Assembly: GCA_026129905.1 (NCBI GenBank)
Contig: JAHCHE010000004.1
Span: forward strand, 124,001 to 188,000
Direction: 5' to 3'
From: Bryobacteraceae bacterium
Lineage (GTDB): Bacteria; Acidobacteriota; Terriglobia; Bryobacterales; Bryobacteraceae
Length of the DNA: 64,000 nt
The first letter of the stretch is position 1; each line of letters begins with the position of its first letter. Below are positions 43,246 to 59,559 of this stretch, one piece after another. The position numbers were made by a program, and so were the translations under genes. Under the pieces are notes generated by a model that did not search any database, was not told where the DNA came from, and saw only the letters and a list, made by a program, of their open reading frames with translations.

Positions 43246-43545
43246 CTACGCCTGCGGCCTTTTGCCTTCGCGCGGCTCGAAGCTGATCAGCAGCCGCGAG
43301 CCGGTGGCCTCCGCAAGGCGCTCCAGCGTCCGCATCGAGGGGCGTACGCGCCCGCTTTCGAGGCGTGCCACCACCGGCTGGGTTGTCCCCATCCTGAGGG
43401 CCAGTTCCTGCTGCGTGAGGCCCGCGCGATTGCGCGCGTCAATCAAGGCCGAGGCGAGGACGAACTCCTCCTCCAGAGCGTCGTTCGCCTTGCGGTACTT
43501 CGGCTCCTTCATCCACTTCCTGTGCAGATCCAATACGCGCGCCAT
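43246..43545 (-). CDS. XRE-family helix-turn-helix antitoxin (HigA-like)
   Basis: A 99-residue protein. An N-terminal helical tail (YRKANDALEEEFVLASALID) precedes an HTH domain, LTQQELALRMGTTQPVVARL followed by ESGRVRPSMRTLERLAEATG. This arrangement is typical of HigA antitoxins encoded directly after HigB toxins. The upstream HigB-like frame is interrupted (see 43559-43882), so the antitoxin may persist without a functional toxin. It would bind the operon promoter and repress it. The final residues (REGKRPQA) are disordered. Confidence 0.87.
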   Translation of the reverse strand: MARVLDLHRKWMKEPKYRKANDALEEEFVLASALIDARNRAGLTQQELALRMGTTQPVVARLESGRVRPSMRTLERLAEATGSRLLISFEPREGKRPQA

Positions 43546-43558
43546 TGCTAAACCTCCC

Positions 43559-43882
43559 TTATTTGACCGATTTCGCGCGCGACCGCGCCAGCTCTATCTC
43601 GCGCCATGGCGTCTTCTGGGTTTTCTTGACGAACACCCGCACGATCACTACACGCTTGCCCAAGGCGGTCACATACAGCGCCCGCGAAATCCCGCTGCGT
43701 CCCGACAGCCGCATTTCCCAAAAAACGGCCCTCGATATGCTTGACGTGCGGCTCGCCCACGTGCTCCAGGCCCTTCTCCTCGATGAGCAAGGCGATCGCG
43801 CCAGCCGCGCCCGCATGTCCTCAGCCAGGGCCTCAACCTCTGCGTCGACGGTTTCGTTCAGGGTCTCGACCGTCCAGCCCAC
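43559..43882 (-). pseudogene. HigB/RelE-type (Gp49-like) toxin with two compensating frameshifts
   Basis: The outer parts are in one frame: GWTVETLNETVDAEVEALAE at the start (GTG 43882) and FWEMRLSGRSGISRALYVTA plus KTQKTPWREIELARSR at the end. The middle, IALLIEEKGLEHVGEPHVKH followed by IEGR, is only readable in another frame. A missing base near 43794-43800 and an extra base in a six-A run (43720-43725) restore one continuous protein of normal length. As written the middle third is scrambled, so the toxin is probably inactive unless these are sequencing errors. A TATACT box at 43888-43893 lies just upstream on the minus strand, implying a near-leaderless mRNA. Confidence 0.7.
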
Positions 43883-44021: not shown

Positions 44022-44122
44022 GAAGCTGTCGAAAACGGCGCGATCCGCAAAGAGATTCCCCTTGTTACAGCTTGAACAGCGTGCGCAGGCGCTTTGTCTG
44101 AACCCGGCTCGCCGGGATCTCG
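44022..44122 (-). repeat. Left copy of a ~100-bp direct repeat: displaced 3' end of the LytTR regulator gene
   Basis: This segment is about 80% identical to 45687-45786. Read on the minus strand it encodes IPASRVQTKRLRTLFKL and stop, against IPVSRVQTKRLRTLFKL at the end of the intact LytTR gene. Similarity continues about 40 bases past the stop codon. There is no gene body attached. The two copies bound the two-gene segment 44123-45686. Confidence 0.85.
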
Positions 44123-44197
44123 CGACGACAATAGAGATGTCACCGCTCAAGGCCAAGGGTCCTTCCGGATCTGCCGGTAATGTTTTAGAGTTGAGCG

Positions 44198-44548
44198 ATG
44201 GACAGCCTCTCGGCCGAAAGCCAGTTCAATCGCGCCATGCACGAGCTCTACGCCCGGATCGTGCGTGAAACCGACTATAACCCGACCATCTTCTTCAGAA
44301 TGATCGACGAGCACGGCGGCCTGGAAGCCGCCCACCGCCTCCTGAAGCCCGATGCGGACTTCTTCAGCTACGGCTTCGAACACCTCTGCCGAATGCGGCG
44401 GGACGACCTGACGATGGAGTCCCTTATCCTCTCCCTCGACTACAGCGACCAGCTTTTCACACCCAAGGAACTGGCGACTGCCGAGGAACGCCTCAAGGCC
44501 GCCCGGCAGCTCTACCCGCCCTCTCCGGGGCCCCGAACCCGATCATAG
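44198..44548 (+). CDS. Small helical protein of unknown function
   Basis: A 116-residue acidic, mostly helical protein. Landmarks are FNRAMHELYARIVRETDYNP, FFRMIDEHGGLEAAHRLLKP, FEHLCRMRRDDLTMESLILS and LFTPKELATAEERLKAARQL. I recognise this as a widespread uncharacterised small-protein pattern (tyrosine-asparagine-proline turn, then GGLEAA-x(2)-LL, then DLT-x-E-x-LIL), but know no function. It is cargo between the duplicated LytTR 3' ends, 61 bases ahead of the HEPN-like gene, so the two are probably co-expressed. Confidence 0.65.
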   Translation: MDSLSAESQFNRAMHELYARIVRETDYNPTIFFRMIDEHGGLEAAHRLLKPDADFFSYGFEHLCRMRRDDLTMESLILSLDYSDQLFTPKELATAEERLKAARQLYPPSPGPRTRS

Positions 44549-44609
44549 ATAATTCGTGCAGTCCTGTTGCAGGGCTCGCTTGCATGTGATAACTCCTCTA
44601 TAACACTCG

Positions 44610-45626
44610 ATGAGACGCCATCCCGCAGTGGACTACCAATTTCAGAACAAGGGCAAGTTCGCCCTCCTGACCTTCAGTGTCTACGTCGATCTCCCGTCGG
44701 CAGCCTTCCGGATGTCGGACGGTACCTGGGTCATGCCTGGCGTCCCGGTCCCCGACCTCGGTGTCTGGAAGGAATGGATCGGCTCCATCCGGCTGGCGCG
44801 GCTTGAAAAGGCCAATCTCGTCCTTTTCGCCGAGGAACCCTCCGGCGACCCCGAGATCCTTGACGCGGTGCACCAGCGCCTCGGCAACGAACTGAGCCAG
44901 CTGTTCTGCATGGCGCATCTCCGCAGCGGCATCGAGTGCGAGAGCGCCGACTTGTTGTGCGGCTCATCCGAGCAGGGCGTCCCTGGCATCCGGCAGGTGC
45001 GCCAGCTCCCGACGTTCTACCAGAGCAACGGTTACAGCCGGAGTCCCATCACCAAGGAGTGGCTTGAAGAGACGCTCACCCTCCGCGCCGGCGTCATGGC
45101 AATGGAGGCCGACAAGACTCAATTCCGGCGGGTCATTCGCGGGCTCAATACGCTCTTCAAGGGCCTAAGAGAAACCGGACAGGACCGCCTCCATCAGTTC
45201 GTCCGCTCGCTGGAGGCGCTTATCGTCCCCGACATCGGCCAGACGCAAACACAGTTCGCGCACCGTTGTCAGACCTTCGCCCGCGCGGGCGACGACACGC
45301 GCACCCTGCTGCTGGAGGCCTTCAAGATGCGCAGCGACACGGAACACCTGCATCCCTGGGACAAGACCGTGCAGAATTATCCCCCGGACCAGCGGGAGGA
45401 CGTGTGCTGGCGCAGGACGCGCCAAATCGAGCACCTAGCTTGCGACGCCTATTCACGGCTCCTCCGTGACGCGAGCATTCGTCGGCATTTCCAGACGGAC
45501 GCTACGATCGCGGCATTCTGGAAGCTACCGGACGATCAACGGCGGGCGCAGTGGGGAAAACCCCTCGACATCGCGCGAGAGCCTCTGATCCACCTGTACG
45601 ACCAATGGGGAAGGGCAGCCACATAA
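44610..45626 (+). CDS. Unknown protein with a HEPN-like C-terminal region
   Basis: A 338-residue soluble protein with no recognised N-terminal family. Residues about 160-285 are helical and read like an Apea-type HEPN domain: HQFVRSLEALIVPDIGQTQT, FAHRCQTFA, then AFKMRSDTEHLHPW, in which R241 and H246 form the R-x(4)-H motif of HEPN ribonucleases. The N-terminal ~150 residues (beta-rich, YVDLPSAAFRMSDGTWVMPG) could be a sensor. HEPN proteins cut RNA in toxin or anti-phage systems. Located in cargo bounded by direct repeats and next to a broken toxin-antitoxin pair. HEPN assignment is inference from one motif and helix pattern. Confidence 0.6.
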   Translation: MRRHPAVDYQFQNKGKFALLTFSVYVDLPSAAFRMSDGTWVMPGVPVPDLGVWKEWIGSIRLARLEKANLVLFAEEPSGDPEILDAVHQRLGNELSQLFCMAHLRSGIECESADLLCGSSEQGVPGIRQVRQLPTFYQSNGYSRSPITKEWLEETLTLRAGVMAMEADKTQFRRVIRGLNTLFKGLRETGQDRLHQFVRSLEALIVPDIGQTQTQFAHRCQTFARAGDDTRTLLLEAFKMRSDTEHLHPWDKTVQNYPPDQREDVCWRRTRQIEHLACDAYSRLLRDASIRRHFQTDATIAAFWKLPDDQRRAQWGKPLDIAREPLIHLYDQWGRAAT

Positions 45627-45686
45627 GCACCGAAATCGTCCTCTCCCCACGCCTGAGCTGCAGCCCGCAGCGCTATTCATGCTCGC

Positions 45687-45786
45687 GAAGCTGGCGAAAG
45701 ACCGCGTGATCCGCAAGAACTGCCTGCGTTACAGCTTGAACAGCGTGCGCAGGCGCTTGGTCTGAACCCGGCTGACCGGGATCTCG
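45687..45786 (-). repeat. Right copy of the ~100-bp direct repeat, overlapping the intact LytTR 3' end
   Basis: Matches 44022-44122 in the same orientation. It covers the last ~58 bases of the LytTR gene including its stop (45729) and 42 bases downstream. The coding part is better conserved than the downstream part. Confidence 0.85.
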
Positions 45787-46511
45787 GTCTGCGCCTTGTC
45801 ATCCATGCGCAACTGGTAACTCGACTTGAACCAGGGGATCACTTCCTTGATCCGGTTGATGTTCACCAGGTAGGAGCGATGGACGCGCCAGAACATGTCC
45901 GGGTCCAGGTTCGACTGGAGTTCCTCGATCGTCCGGTAGTTGGACAGTCCTTCCAGCCGCGTGGAAACCACCGTGATCAGGCCGTCCTGGATGGTGGCGT
46001 AGATCACGTCGTTGGCGTCCACGATGAAGTTCCGGTTGCTGGCCTTGATGAGCAGCTTGCTCCGCTGCGCGGCCGGACGTGGCGGGGCGGGATGTTCCAC
46101 CGGGGGGCCGCCCTTGATCAACCCGGCCATCGACCGCCGGGCGCGGTCCACCGTCACCGCCAGCCGCTCGTGGTCCACCGGCTTCAGCAGGTAGTCCAGG
46201 GCTTCCTGGTGAAACGCCTCGACGGCGTACTGGTCGAACGCCGTGGTCAGCACGAATCGGGGCATGGGGCTGGTTTTCTCGCGCAGCTTCCGGATCACCC
46301 CCAGGCCGTTCAGGCCCGGCATCTGCACGTCGAGAAACACCAGGTCCGGCTCCAGCGATTCAATCAACTCAACCGCTTCCAGGCCGTTGCGCGCGGTTCC
46401 GACGATCTCGATGTCGGAGAAGTCTCTCAGCAGGTAAGCAAGTTCGTCCGATGCCAGCCGCTCGTCATCGACCAGAATCGTCCGGATGCACTCCGTTTCG
46501 CGCCCTCCCAT
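45729..46511 (-). CDS. LytTR-family response regulator
   Basis: A 260-residue two-domain regulator. The receiver (residues about 9-125) has VDDERLASDEL, D59-like acceptor in PDLVFLDVQMPGLNGLG, Thr/Ala in FVLTTAFDQYAV and Lys in YLLKPVDHERL. A proline-rich linker (PPVEHPAPPRPAAQ) leads to a LytTR DNA-binding domain: NDVIYATIQDGLITVVST, WRVHRSYLVNINRIKEVIPW. Start MGGRETE at 46511 is preferred over a longer frame because a TATACT box lies 10 bases upstream. The partner kinase is not adjacent. Its 3' end is partly duplicated 1.6 kb downstream, bounding a cargo segment. Confidence 0.92.
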   Translation of the reverse strand: MGGRETECIRTILVDDERLASDELAYLLRDFSDIEIVGTARNGLEAVELIESLEPDLVFLDVQMPGLNGLGVIRKLREKTSPMPRFVLTTAFDQYAVEAFHQEALDYLLKPVDHERLAVTVDRARRSMAGLIKGGPPVEHPAPPRPAAQRSKLLIKASNRNFIVDANDVIYATIQDGLITVVSTRLEGLSNYRTIEELQSNLDPDMFWRVHRSYLVNINRIKEVIPWFKSSYQLRMDDKAQTEIPVSRVQTKRLRTLFKL

Positions 46512-46520
46512 TAGAGTGCT

Positions 46521-46526
46521 AGTATA
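46521..46526 (-). promoter_or_regulatory. Probable -10 box of the LytTR gene (near-leaderless)
   Basis: TATACT on the minus strand ends 9 bases before the ATG at 46511, so transcription would begin within about 3 bases of the start codon. No good -35 match (GGATCG at 17-bp spacing). No SD precedes this ATG. Confidence 0.45.
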
Positions 46527-46578
46527 GCATCTTGCATTCTTACCGATCCGTAATGCCAACCCTATAAGGAGTCATCAT

Positions 46579-54971: not shown

Positions 54972-56612
54972 ATGCGGAGAAATATCTTTGTACTTCTATT
55001 CGTGTGTTCAGCCGCGCTGGCGCAAATCGAAGGGCCCCCGCGCGTGGGCGTGGGGGTGATCAGGAAAGAGCTTTCTCTGGCGCAGGCGATCGAACTGGCG
55101 GTGCGCAACAACCTCGAAGTGCAGGTGGAGAAGACCGGCGTCTCGTCGGCGGTGGAGTCCCGCAAGGGCGCGCGCGGTTTCCTCGACCCGCGCCTCCGCT
55201 GGCAGCCGATGTTGGAGAACCGCAACACGCCGACCAGTTCCGCCCTCATCGGCGTGGACGGAAAACTGGTGGAGAGGATCCACTCCCAGAACTTCTATTT
55301 CGACCAGCGCCTGCCCTGGGCCGGCTCGACGTTCAACGTCAGCTTCGAAAACGACCGGGAATCCACCAGCAACCCGTTTGTCGCGCTCAGCCCCTTCATC
55401 ACCACGCGGCTGCGGTTTGCGCTGACGCTTCCCTTGCTGCGGAATCGCGAGATCGACCGCGAGCGGGCCAACCTGCGGGTCACCGCCAGGCAGGTGGAGC
55501 TTTCCGAATCGAATGTCGAAGTGAAGGTGATCGAGGTGGTGGAGCGCGTCGAGGAGGCGTACTGGAACCTGGTCGCCGCGCGGCAGAACGTCCAGGTCTC
55601 CTCCGAAGCCGTGAACCTGGCGCGCGAGCAACTGGCGCGGACCCGGCGCATGATCGACAGCGGCACGCTGGCCCCGGTGGAAATCGCCGCAGCCGAAGCC
55701 GAGCTTGAGCGCCGCGTCGACACCTGGTACGCCAGCATCGGCCAGGTGACGCAGGTGGAGAACGCGCTAAAGGTACTGATTACCGGCAGCCGCCACGAGC
55801 CGCTTTGGGACGACGAGATCGTCCCGGAGGAGCGCGTGCTGGAAGCGCCGCAATTCGACCAGGTGCGGCAGGCGGTGGACCTGTCGCTGAAGCGCCGCCC
55901 GGAGCTGCGGCAGGTAGGCATCCAGGAGGAGACGAACGCGATTCAGAGCGAGCTGGCGCGCAACCAGACGCTTCCCGCGATGAACCTGGTGGGCGGCTAT
56001 CTCTCGTCCGGGCTTGCCGGCTCGGTGACGACCACGCAAAACCCCTTCGTGGAGGTCTCGGCCGCCCAGATCGCGCGGCTGAACGAATTGTCCCGCCTCC
56101 AGGGACTGCCGCCCCTGCCTCCGGCATCGTTCGGCGGCGCGCCCGATAAACTCATCGGGGGCTACGGCTCGGTCTTGGGCGGCGTGTTCGAAAACCGTTA
56201 CCCGACGGCCTTCGTGGGACTGCAATTCGACTTCACCGCCCGCAACCGCGCCGCCGAATCGGAACTGGCGCAGACGGCGGTAAACGAGCGCCGCCTGAAG
56301 CTCCAGCGCGCCCTGGTGGAACAACGCATCGAAGCGCAGGTCCGCAACGCCCTGCAGGAACTGGAGACCGCCCGCCAGCGCATCACCGCCGCCGAATCCA
56401 GCGCCCGTGCCTCGCAAGAGAAATTGGACAGCGAGGTCCGCCTGTTCCAGACCGGCGAATCGACCAACTTCCTGGTCCTGACCCGCCAGAATGAGCTGGC
56501 CGACTCGCGGCAGAGGGTGGTGGCCGCGAAGGCCGACTTCAACAAAGCCGTCGCGCGGCTTCGCCTGGCGGTGGGCACGACGCTGGAAACGTACAACATT
56601 ACCGTGCAGTAG
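54972..56612 (+). CDS. TolC-family outer-membrane efflux protein
   Basis: A 546-residue outer-membrane factor with signal peptide RRNIFVLLFVCSAALAQ. Two OEP repeats are seen: residues about 40-260 (LSLAQAIELAVRNNLEVQVE; EEAYWNLVAARQNVQVSSEA) and about 300-540 (VDLSKRRPELRQVG-type helix; ALVEQRIEAQVRNALQELET; SEVRLFQTGESTNFLVLTRQ). The insert near 340-400 is long for the family. Together with the upstream pump and adaptor it forms a tripartite exporter. Its last ~107 codons plus about 40 bases of downstream DNA recur 2100 bases later (58326-58712). Confidence 0.93.
   Translation: MRRNIFVLLFVCSAALAQIEGPPRVGVGVIRKELSLAQAIELAVRNNLEVQVEKTGVSSAVESRKGARGFLDPRLRWQPMLENRNTPTSSALIGVDGKLVERIHSQNFYFDQRLPWAGSTFNVSFENDRESTSNPFVALSPFITTRLRFALTLPLLRNREIDRERANLRVTARQVELSESNVEVKVIEVVERVEEAYWNLVAARQNVQVSSEAVNLAREQLARTRRMIDSGTLAPVEIAAAEAELERRVDTWYASIGQVTQVENALKVLITGSRHEPLWDDEIVPEERVLEAPQFDQVRQAVDLSLKRRPELRQVGIQEETNAIQSELARNQTLPAMNLVGGYLSSGLAGSVTTTQNPFVEVSAAQIARLNELSRLQGLPPLPPASFGGAPDKLIGGYGSVLGGVFENRYPTAFVGLQFDFTARNRAAESELAQTAVNERRLKLQRALVEQRIEAQVRNALQELETARQRITAAESSARASQEKLDSEVRLFQTGESTNFLVLTRQNELADSRQRVVAAKADFNKAVARLRLAVGTTLETYNITVQ
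56291..56612 (+). repeat. Left copy of a 2100-bp-offset direct repeat (3' end of the tolC-like gene)
   Basis: These 322 bases align without gaps to 58391-58712, with about 19 differences counted by eye over 320 bases (about 94% identity). All but one difference at codon level are silent; only Thr versus Ala near the C-terminus changes. Weaker similarity continues about 40 bases past both stop codons (GGGAGTT-GCTTGAGA). Confidence 0.93.
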
Positions 56613-57025
56613 GGGCGGCGGGGTTTTCGGCGGGAGTTGGCTTGAGAGGGTTCCATCTCTCGAATTCAGCAGCAGGCACAAGGCGGCGAGGCTGACGGAT
56701 GATCGGCCTTTGAGGCACTGTCGCACTTCCTTTCTCGCAGAGTCGCCCGCCCGCGAGTTGGTGGTCACGACGCTCTACCCACAACATCGCGGGGCGGACG
56801 AAACTGTTTGGGACAACCGAGTACCCGCGCGCGAGAGGTGGCTCGGCCATCGTGAAAGCAGCCTTCCGGGTAGCGATCTTCTATGCTGGTCTGCCGTACC
56901 TGGTCAGCAGCCGCCGAGCCTCCTTTCACAGCGCGTAGGCAGCGACACCATCGGTGAGCCTTGCCCTGAGCGAATTCTGAGCAATGGTTCCGTGGCGTAC
57001 GGTTTAAGATCAGCTAGAGATCGTA
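56613..57025. other. 413-bp stretch without a supported gene
   Basis: After about 40 bases that belong to the duplicated tolC-like 3' region, I see no frame with family similarity, SD or convincing codon pattern on either strand. It is the first part of the segment bounded by the duplicated 3' ends. Confidence 0.5.
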
Positions 57026-58042
57026 CTACTCCGCAGCACATGCAGCGCGGATGCGGAAGAAATTTGGTGAGTGTTCACCTCCGATCACATCTTCTTCGCC
57101 TGAGACCCAAACACACCTCCATGTGTTCGTCGTTCCGAAAGCGGGTCCCGAGTAGATGAGTCTGAGGTGATCTGCCATCCAACGCTGCCTCGTTGTCTCG
57201 AAACTGTTGCCGTCTGCCGGCACGGGAAAATTGAACGTACACGATCCTCCCACGATCCTCTTGCCATCGCTACAGGTAACCCCGTAATCAGAAGGTGGTC
57301 GACCGCTCCCGAGGGGGCCGATCCAGTAGCTATTTCCTTTTCCATCATGAGCCCCGTAGGGTTCATCGAGGATTTCTAGGCCCGACCCGGTCTTGATGTT
57401 AGAGTCCCCGGAAGACTTGCAGTCGATGCTTTCGCTGAAAGAGGTGCACTCATATCCCTCAACGTTGAGAGTCTTCGGGAGGTAGTCTTTGGTGTTGTTG
57501 TTGACAATTGTCGTAACGGGGACCCGGTTAACCGCGCAATTGACGGTGTTGCCGGTCCCTTTGCACTCGATCCCGTCGCCGGTGAAGTTGAGGGCCTGAA
57601 CGCCGGGGAGCGATGTCCCTTCATCCTGAATGACGCGGGGCAATCCCGGATCCCCTTTGTCGCCTTTGGCCGGGAACGTGTAATCTATCGTCGCCGACTG
57701 GTTGGTGTTGTTGGTCAACGTCAGCAAGTACGTGCCGGGAGAGAGTGATGTCTGAGGCGGCAGTTTTGCCACGACCCAGGTTCTAGACGTCCAGGTAGGA
57801 GTCAGCCGCAACACTCCCGATTCGCTTTGCTTGGTCGGATCGATTGGCGGTTTGCCGAGAGTCACCGTCGGCTCCGGAAGATCTCGCGTCAGGTATTCCC
57901 CTATGATCACGATCTCACCGGCGGAGTTCATCGGCCTGACATGAAAGATTTTCGGGGGCGGGTCAGCCGCTGGCAGAAGCGGAGCAAGAAACAACAGCAG
58001 AGTGATGCTGCTGAGGATGATTGTTGAATTTCTGATCTTCAT
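57026..58042 (-). CDS. Secreted protein with an IPT/TIG-like domain and a single collagen-like turn, unknown function
   Basis: A 338-residue protein with a signal peptide (TIILSSITLLLFLAPLLPAA). Residues about 28-125 resemble an IPT/TIG immunoglobulin-like fold (KIFHVRPMNSAGEIVIIGEY; SPGTYLLTLTNN). One short collagen-like GDKGDPGLP follows at 127-135. The rest is a Cys-, Asn- and Gly-rich C-terminal region (GIECKGTGNTVNCAV; YECTSFSESIDC; VTCSDGKRIVGGSC; NTWRCVWVSG), suggesting several disulfides. Lower GC and Asn-rich composition than its neighbours fit acquisition by transfer. It is the only gene in the cargo bounded by duplicated tolC-like 3' ends. Confidence 0.75.
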   Translation of the reverse strand: MKIRNSTIILSSITLLLFLAPLLPAADPPPKIFHVRPMNSAGEIVIIGEYLTRDLPEPTVTLGKPPIDPTKQSESGVLRLTPTWTSRTWVVAKLPPQTSLSPGTYLLTLTNNTNQSATIDYTFPAKGDKGDPGLPRVIQDEGTSLPGVQALNFTGDGIECKGTGNTVNCAVNRVPVTTIVNNNTKDYLPKTLNVEGYECTSFSESIDCKSSGDSNIKTGSGLEILDEPYGAHDGKGNSYWIGPLGSGRPPSDYGVTCSDGKRIVGGSCTFNFPVPADGNSFETTRQRWMADHLRLIYSGPAFGTTNTWRCVWVSGEEDVIGGEHSPNFFRIRAACAAE

Positions 58043-58325: not shown

Positions 58326-58712
58326 GAGCCTCGAACCCGCATCGAGCGCCCGGCATCGGAGGCTACGGAGCAGGAAGCGGTAGAAGATCGCCGGCTGAAG
58401 CTCCAGCGCGCGCTGGTGGAACAGCGCATCGAAGCGCAGGTCCGCAACGCCTTGCAGGAACTGGAGACCGCGCGCCAGCGCATCACCGCCGCCGAATCCA
58501 GCGCCCGTGCCTCGCAAGAGAAACTGGACAGCGAGGTCCGCCTCTTCCAGACCGGCGAATCGACCAACTTCCTGGTGCTGACGCGCCAGAACGAGCTGGC
58601 CGACTCGCGGCAGCGCGTCGTGGCCGCGAAGGCCGACTTCAACAAAGCCGTCGCCCGCCTTCGCCTGGCGGTGGGCACGACGCTGGAGACGTACAATATC
58701 GCGGTGCAGTAG
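58326..58712 (+). pseudogene. Duplicated 3' fragment of the tolC-like gene
   Basis: The frame is open from just after a TAG at 58323 and reads ASEATEQEAVEDRRLKLQRA, then a stretch identical to the C-terminus of the upstream OMF except for one residue. From 58391 to 58712 it matches 56291-56612 without gaps. Upstream of 58385 the similarity decays quickly (EAVEDRRLK against TAVNERRLK). No signal peptide or first OEP repeat exists, so it cannot form a channel. A GTG at 58416 could start a 98-residue peptide but has no SD. Confidence 0.9.
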
Positions 58713-59559
58713 GGCGGGAGGTCGTCAGCGGGAGTTCGCTTGAGAACCCGAGCGGCGGGTGGCTTTAGGCGGCTTCTCAGAGACACCGCCGTAATTGGTG
58801 TCCGGGCGCCGCTCGAATGCCGCCGCCAGACTCGAGCCCTGGACCAACACCAGGCATCAGAGGCTACGACTCTGGCGGGTACAAGCTGGAGCTCGGTGGA
58901 AGCGGTTACAGGTTCGTGTGGGTCACTGGTATTCCCCTGCCCCGGCGCGCAACAACCGCGAAATACCGTCAAGCTACGAACCTGCGCACAATCGAGTGCT
59001 GGCGCGTGCCAAACTTCGCTATGCGCGACGATCTACGCCGAGGCAGGGACACCGGCACCAATACCGGTACCCCTGAGCCCACGGAGTCCGCAGCTCTGAT
59101 TATCCTCATGTCTGGAAGCGTGATTTCTCTGATCTGATGCTCCGAGGTGTGCCCAGGAAACGTAACCGCTAGCTCCCCGGTAGCTCCATCCGCCCGCTGC
59201 GCGCGAACTAACGTTCTTGCCGTCCTCACCGGCGTCGATGTCACATCGGGTCCTTTCCGATGAACCTCAGTAAGTGAAAGTGCGTATGGGATGTACTGTA
59301 CCGAGGCCGCCGCAATGTCAGAGCGAAAATGAGGCGCAACCGCACGCATAAAAGCGCACCCCCGGACAATAATTGTCGCAAATGGCTGATGGCGTCAGAG
59401 TTTCGGCGCGCTTTTCGGACCAGGGCGGACCGGGCCAGGCAGGCCGACGTGGCCGACGTCGCGCCGCTTGGCAGAAGGGGCCCGCCGCTGTAGAATCACC
59501 CCATGCCGGATAATCGCGTCCCGATCTCTGTCCGGCTCCTATCCTCAAGGAGAAACGAA
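58713..59559. other. 847 bases without a supported gene
   Basis: After about 40 bases that still resemble the region behind the intact tolC-like gene, several overlapping short frames exist on both strands but none has a family match, SD or start that I can support. One plus-strand stretch near 58850-58925 (GIRGYDSGGYKLELGGSGYR) looks protein-like and may be a relic. GACAAT-A-ATTGTC at 59365-59377 is a perfect odd palindrome, possibly an operator for the following oxidoreductase gene. Confidence 0.45.

Follow-up and report, generated by a model that had tools for sequence, protein, structure and literature searches.

A LytTR gene end duplicated around a predicted HEPN module in a Bryobacteraceae genome: probable import by homology at one side

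Integrase-bearing elements such as e14, which resides in icd, regenerate the 3' end of the host gene when they insert. The minimal mobile elements of Neisseria are characterized by alternative cargo between conserved genes and by having no mobility genes; to our knowledge, duplicated gene ends are not part of their definition, and the movement of small defence modules between bacteria by means other than a mobility gene is, as far as we know, poorly documented. Homology-facilitated illegitimate recombination brings in foreign DNA by homology at one end and by an illegitimate join, often with microhomology, at the other, and needs no recombinase (PMC2884548; PMC3240628); the events described in the accessible part of the former source are insertions or replacements, not duplications (PMC2884548). 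For the T6SS effectors of Vibrio cholerae, an incoming module anchored by homology has been proposed to displace the old 3' end downstream (PMC5361080), and in the merodiploidy of Streptococcus pneumoniae the transforming DNA produces duplications by alternative pairing (PMC3784515). The recombination process itself is already known. As for recurrent duplicated gene tails around defence cargo, no description was found in the open PMC literature, within the portions of text accessible there. In this paper a locus of this kind is described.

The window, that is, the whole stretch of DNA analysed, comprises 64,000 nucleotides of a Bryobacteraceae bacterium (assembly GCA_026129905.1, contig JAHCHE010000004.1, positions 124,001 to 188,000 of the forward strand). 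The features of the locus, in window positions, are as follows.

43246-43545, minus strand: HTH_3 protein (Pfam) beyond the distal repeat copy, in a toxin-antitoxin-like pair with the next gene
43559-43882, minus strand: Gp49-like protein (Pfam) beyond the distal copy, the partner in this pair
44022-44122, minus strand: distal repeat copy, a bare LytTR 3' end, recognized by alignment to the proximal copy and the only second place in the assembly
44123-45686, no strand: cargo segment between the repeat copies, 1,564 bp with two ORFs
44198-44548, plus strand: orf116, 116 aa, no functional assignment, weak relatives in 3 of 60 other genomes
44610-45626, plus strand: orf338, 338 aa, with a HEPN-like C-terminal domain (about 167-299) and R241-x4-H246, according to alignment, an AlphaFold2 model and structural matches
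45687-45786, minus strand: proximal repeat copy, the LytTR 3' end and 42 bases past the stop, 86% identical to 44022-44122 over 102 columns
45729-46559, minus strand: LytTR response regulator (Pfam Response_reg and LytTR), complete, the anchor gene

In the self-comparison of the window the two copies form a direct repeat with an E value of 1e-24, and in its core (44064-44122 against 45728-45786) 56 of 59 bases are identical. When 44022-44160 was used as the query against the whole 8.57-Mb assembly, matches were obtained at exactly two places, the two repeat copies. The coding part is 58 nt long (18 aa, the stop and one base) with three differences, while the 44 columns past the stop contain eight mismatches and three one-base gaps, so the divergence is lower within the coding sequence than past the stop (3/58 against 11/44 columns, P 0.007). 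Lower divergence in the coding part agrees weakly with an import of DNA, and uneven decay could also contribute. The distal copy carries a V-to-A change (V262A) at a position which is V in all of the relatives' genes (33/33); it may be read as the native, decayed end, and the 3' end now carried by the complete gene as donor-derived. The preliminary description of this locus had placed the repeat on both sides of a 1.56-kb piece with two genes and had taken the distal copy as a bare 3' end, and both points are confirmed; its estimate of about 40 downstream bases was right (42), but instead of 17 codons the coding part comprises 18 amino acids and the stop.

Among the LytTR loci of relatives that were examined, most have the LytTR gene in a divergent pair with an inositol-phosphate synthase gene. 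The window's neighbours beyond the distal copy had no match in the relatives' LytTR downstream regions, and because of this no empty LytTR site is readable there. Neither a donor nor an empty site for the window locus was found among the 61 genomes searched, which include no second genome of the window's genus.

Both cargo ORFs lie on the plus strand and point toward the LytTR stop. The relatives of orf116 give no clue to its function. The HEPN motif is defined as R-x4-6-H, and R241 and H246 of orf338 are invariant in all eight aligned sequences (R-x4-H), though orf338 has no family match in Pfam, NCBIfam or PADLOC and, in particular, none to a HEPN family of Pfam. The AlphaFold2 model built from the eight-sequence alignment has a pLDDT of 76.5 and a pTM of 0.79. 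When the helical part (167-299) was compared with 998 chains, the top three structural matches were HEPN chains (Z 8.1, 6.6 and 6.2, the next being 4.9), Z values of a size which, according to the tool's own warning, may be frequent among helical bundles; with Foldseek alone, orf338 had no significant match. On the modest Z values and the motif, orf338 is likely to contain a HEPN domain, and the most likely prediction for the cargo is a small module of the HEPN-RNase type with a defence or toxin role. The term HEPN-like, chosen originally from the letters, is thus borne out by the predicted fold and the motif, and the statement that no recombinase is encoded agrees with the searches: neither cargo ORF had a recombinase match in Pfam, and the tyrosine and serine recombinase families PF00589 and PF00239 had no match on the 341-kb contig.

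Relatives of orf338 were found in assemblies named Deltaproteobacteria, Nitrospira and Nitrospiraceae and in assemblies with several acidobacterial names, and none was found in the viral contigs or in the phages searched. In one genome (G046) the relative adjoins a ShosA match (2e-72) and a HAD-phosphoribosyltransferase that matches ShosT less strongly (3e-9), and the gene order is the same in a second genome (G042). A distant relative (25.8% identity, 1 record of 72,556) is located on a Bradyrhizobium plasmid, where nearby genes are annotated as AbiV, HEPN/Toprim-associated, SAVED and CBASS cyclase. On this plasmid (L213, 7001-11046) the relative is followed by a methionyl-tRNA formyltransferase-like gene and by HEPN/Toprim and AbiV genes.

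The idea that orf338 marks a repeat-bounded element was rejected, since it is enclosed by direct repeats in just 3 of 10 loci (the window and nine genome-contig loci). The three are the window, L088 of G046 and L091 of G042, the last two having a common junction and so being counted as one insertion. In four loci (L083, L084, L087 and L089) the match lies no more than about 0.5 kb from a contig end and one side only was testable, and in the remaining three (L085, L086 and L090) no repeats enclose orf338, L085 having a repeat pair beside it. In G040 orf338 is broken and a long repeated sequence nearby does not enclose it. Two Nitrospira-type contigs are alike just upstream of orf338 (L084, 9759-9998; L087, 7597-7800) and differ in their outer genes; the common stretch is possibly a module boundary.

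An analogous locus, between an MFS gene and a GyrI gene, was found in a sister family, where 11 genomes of the genus were searched and six could be judged. Three are unfilled (G051, G052 and G056), with MFS, 145 nt and then GyrI, and a single MFS 3' end; three are filled (G046, G042 and G045), with 4.5, 6.2 and 5.4 kb, respectively, between the two genes and two MFS 3' ends. The cargo of G046 and G042 consists of the orf338 relative and ShosTA, with a near-identical inner junction common to both. G045 has no orf338 match, and its sole ShosA-like match (35%) sits on another contig; varying cargo is thus seen between the same conserved genes. The distal copy adjoins GyrI at 6-7 nt in all three filled genomes, as does the single copy in all three unfilled ones, and therefore the GyrI-side MFS end is native and the other arrived with the cargo. 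At this locus, insertion strands the old gene end.

Duplicated 5' ends occur as well. In G046 (L040, 11035-11314 and 15176-15454) the MFS 5' end and upstream DNA are duplicated around a gene for a 1,082-aa receptor-like protein, and the small duplicated 5' fragment in L085 is another case of the 5' type. In G042 (L041, 5307-5356 and 12045-12094) a 50-nt piece of the 3' part of the GyrI-like gene is found next to the complete MFS gene, which hints at a deletion in this place or at a previous exchange.

In the window's own family, the LytTR 3' end of a genome of another genus (G006) is duplicated around a 1.3-kb segment, which closes with a diverged aconitase 3' end, and the real aconitase gene comes next. 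The LytTR copies are identical at 368 of 399 positions, with differences on either side of a 126-nt identical run. One crossover with the genome of a relative in which LytTR, cargo and aconitase follow one another would leave such a pattern. The LytTR 3' end as a general hotspot was rejected, a long second copy being present in 1 of the 33 relatives' downstream regions (that of G006), apart from the trivial self-match in every row which came from including 60 downstream bases in the query. Seven other rows gave short extra matches of 15-62 nt, and G034 has a LytTR paralogue (36% identical) downstream. Tandem complete LytTR genes, which had been named as the sign of a decayed tandem duplication, were absent from the 33 downstream regions of 1.6-9.6 kb, where G006 has its partial second copy.

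Similar scars occur elsewhere in the genome of the window. In 1,964,106 bases (1.96 Mb, 23%), nine partial-gene direct repeats flanking cargo were counted, with gene calls from a simple ORF heuristic checked by eye. In five of them a complete gene has its 3' end duplicated: LytTR, an efflux gene, a LysR gene (C5), a gene for 518 aa (C12) and a gene for 455 aa (C14, where 22 coding nt and 89 downstream are duplicated). Two more (C2 and C8) are of a similar 3'-end type but incomplete, C2 only loosely so, with 35 nt missing between its fragment and the end of the gene, and C8 being cut by the contig end. Of the two in C1, one carries the 5' end of a serine recombinase gene and the other is internal. 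The ratio of 3' to 5' scars is 7:1 with the incomplete cases (P 0.035) and 5:1 without them (P 0.11), so that a lean to gene 3' ends is suggestive only. The efflux scar is the second within the window, its copies being 2.1 kb apart:

56277-56647 and 58377-58745: copies of the 3' end of an outer-membrane efflux gene (54972-56612), 92% identical, 374 coding nt and 35 beyond
57026-58042, minus strand: cargo of the efflux scar, a single long ORF of 338 aa with no Pfam match

Cargo of conflict type is represented by a GT4-conflict/AAA/TPR protein (C8) and a Tc-R-P DSP phosphatase (C5), and cargo of other types by a protein kinase/WD40 regulator (C12) and a GH95-type hydrolase (C14). The C8 protein (L177, 1-6085) is 1,237 aa long and lies between two partial copies of one gene, which we take to be DUF1501-like, the contig ending inside the second copy. 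C5 (L174, 10711-11790) is a small scar much like that of the window, with the LysR end flanking the Tc-R-P type DSP phosphatase and a small ORF. Left out of the nine were tandem or short-spaced repeats (C3 at 238.7k and 14.4k, C34 at 258.1k, C8 at 2.2k, C9, C14 at 18.6k and C20), repeats bounding integrase-bearing elements (C1 at 480.2k/493.8k and C12 at 26.7k/35.2k), pairs interpreted as paralogues (C15 at 83%, C4 at 79% and others under 80%) and one 43-nt pair 11 kb apart (C3). Some further repeat pairs in relatives were left unclassified (eight in 400 kb of G008, two in L068 and one each in L055 and L076).

The differences between copies at codon positions 1/2/3 number 24/19/116 in the five large pairs (the efflux gene, C2, C12, and the LytTR and aconitase ends of G006) and 45/39/160 over all 13 pairs tested. 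The third position is in excess; for the most part, these copies diverged under selection and hence in separate lineages. Pairs with no clear excess are the window LytTR (0/1/2), the MFS ends of G046 (12/6/16) and G042 (3/3/6), L085 (2/4/2), C5 (2/2/4) and C14 (0/1/0). Depending on the case, the duplicated stretch comprises 22 to 465 coding nt. At the inner boundaries neither a common motif, as judged by eye, nor extended homology was found, and a comparison of nine cargo segments gave no sequence in common except orf338 in two.

The reading preferred here, with a probability of roughly 0.6, is an additive import from a relative, anchored by homology at one side only, over a site-specific element, a duplication in situ and a misassembly. 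A DNA block of a related bacterium, consisting of the LytTR 3' end and the genes next to it there (orf338 and orf116), would enter the cell and recombine by homology at the resident LytTR 3' end, and its other end would be joined upstream of the crossover without extended homology. The resident gene would take over the donor 3' end and stay complete, and its own 3' end would be stranded beyond the cargo and decay there. Such a process could be homology-facilitated illegitimate recombination or a Campbell-type insertion of a circularised fragment. The DNA would enter by transformation or conjugation; ComEC is present in this genome, as it also is in 10 of 14 control genomes. For the window itself we infer the origin of the insert by import, the identity of the native copy, the way in which the DNA entered and a role of the cargo in defence. 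In favour of import, the LytTR-type architecture recurs in five of the nine scars (seven with the two incomplete ones) and also in relatives, and homology at one end is given by the repeat itself, with homeologous ends in G006 and other scars. The unfilled, filled and differently filled MFS-GyrI sites, the crossover pattern of G006, the pooled codon-position counts and the unlike boundaries and cargo also count for it. Against it, the repeat in the window has just 58 coding nt, which makes homologous pairing marginal, and its codon count of 0/1/2 is uninformative; the MFS pairs show little third-position excess, and the 3'-end lean is not predicted by plain recombination. Likewise, neither a donor nor an empty site nor microhomology could be shown for the window, and the homology-facilitated events described in PMC2884548 are not duplications.

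That lean, with seven of eight end-type scars at 3' ends (two incomplete), would suit a satellite-type site-specific element, which attaches at the 3' ends of genes, bears an imitation of the gene end and depends on a recombinase that acts in trans or has meanwhile been lost. Regenerated gene ends, the MFS 3' end filled with two or more kinds of cargo in three of the six genomes judged, the use of LytTR ends in two genera, and the 14 PF00589 and five PF00239 matches elsewhere in the genome would fit as well. Nevertheless, we consider it unlikely: the window cargo and its contig gave none of the recombinase matches given above, the repeats are anywhere between 22 and 465 coding nt long, with unlike cargo ends and no common boundary motif by eye, and the G006 insert duplicates two different gene ends, while two integrase-bearing elements in the same genome have repeats of 51 and 65 nt located at the integrase ORF or about 100 nt from it. 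The same repeat lengths, boundaries, unlike cargo and missing recombinase speak against the core attachment site expected in the preliminary description; its insertion at a gene 3' terminus with regeneration of the end is supported at the MFS-GyrI locus, with one end in the three unfilled and two in the three filled genomes with different cargo, but not as a discrete element.

Less probable still is a tandem duplication of the LytTR end in situ, followed by insertion of cargo and decay of one copy. Duplications are common in bacteria, and damage to the distal copy is seen in the window (V262A) and elsewhere (a stop and a frameshift in C12, a frameshift in the MFS end of G046); against this stand the third-position excess in several other scars, the diverged ends of both neighbours in G006, the unfilled MFS-GyrI sites with one copy, and the unequal coding and downstream divergence in the window, of which uneven decay could give some. 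A misassembly or strain mixture in this metagenome-type assembly, whose contamination is given as 4.38%, would likewise join homeologous copies; with a 341-kb contig free of any N, damaged distal copies, and a near-identical junction and the same architecture in the separate assemblies G042 and G046, it is very improbable.

The scar identifies the anchor gene and the old junction, so such events can be counted from single genomes; it also predicts unfilled sites and alternative cargo, both of which were observed at one locus, MFS-GyrI. Furthermore, a HEPN-like protein which escapes Pfam, NCBIfam and PADLOC is added; in two genomes it is a neighbour of ShosTA, and a distant relative has defence genes around it on a Bradyrhizobium plasmid. 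A wider proposal, which is tentative and on present data rather doubtful, is that this order possesses a recombinase-free kind of island, in which modules of one to a few genes, often of conflict or defence type, would use the 3' end of the adjoining gene as a portable homology handle, the import regenerating the host gene and stranding its old tail. On this proposal, displaced 3' ends would be a readable record of gene acquisition, and the lean to 3' ends would come from 5' scars making truncated proteins.

Compared with homology-facilitated illegitimate recombination, the gene end is here duplicated and not replaced, and the scar recurs at many genes. In the T6SS of Vibrio cholerae, the 3' part of the effector changes its identity, whereas the anchor gene here keeps its sequence and gains unrelated neighbours; the duplications of Streptococcus pneumoniae are about 100-900 kb long and arise via repeats, whereas here gene tails are duplicated around new cargo. 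The alternative cargo at MFS-GyrI resembles that of the Neisserial minimal mobile elements as they are generally defined. As in integrase elements of the e14 type, the gene end is regenerated, but here with neither a recombinase nor a constant core.
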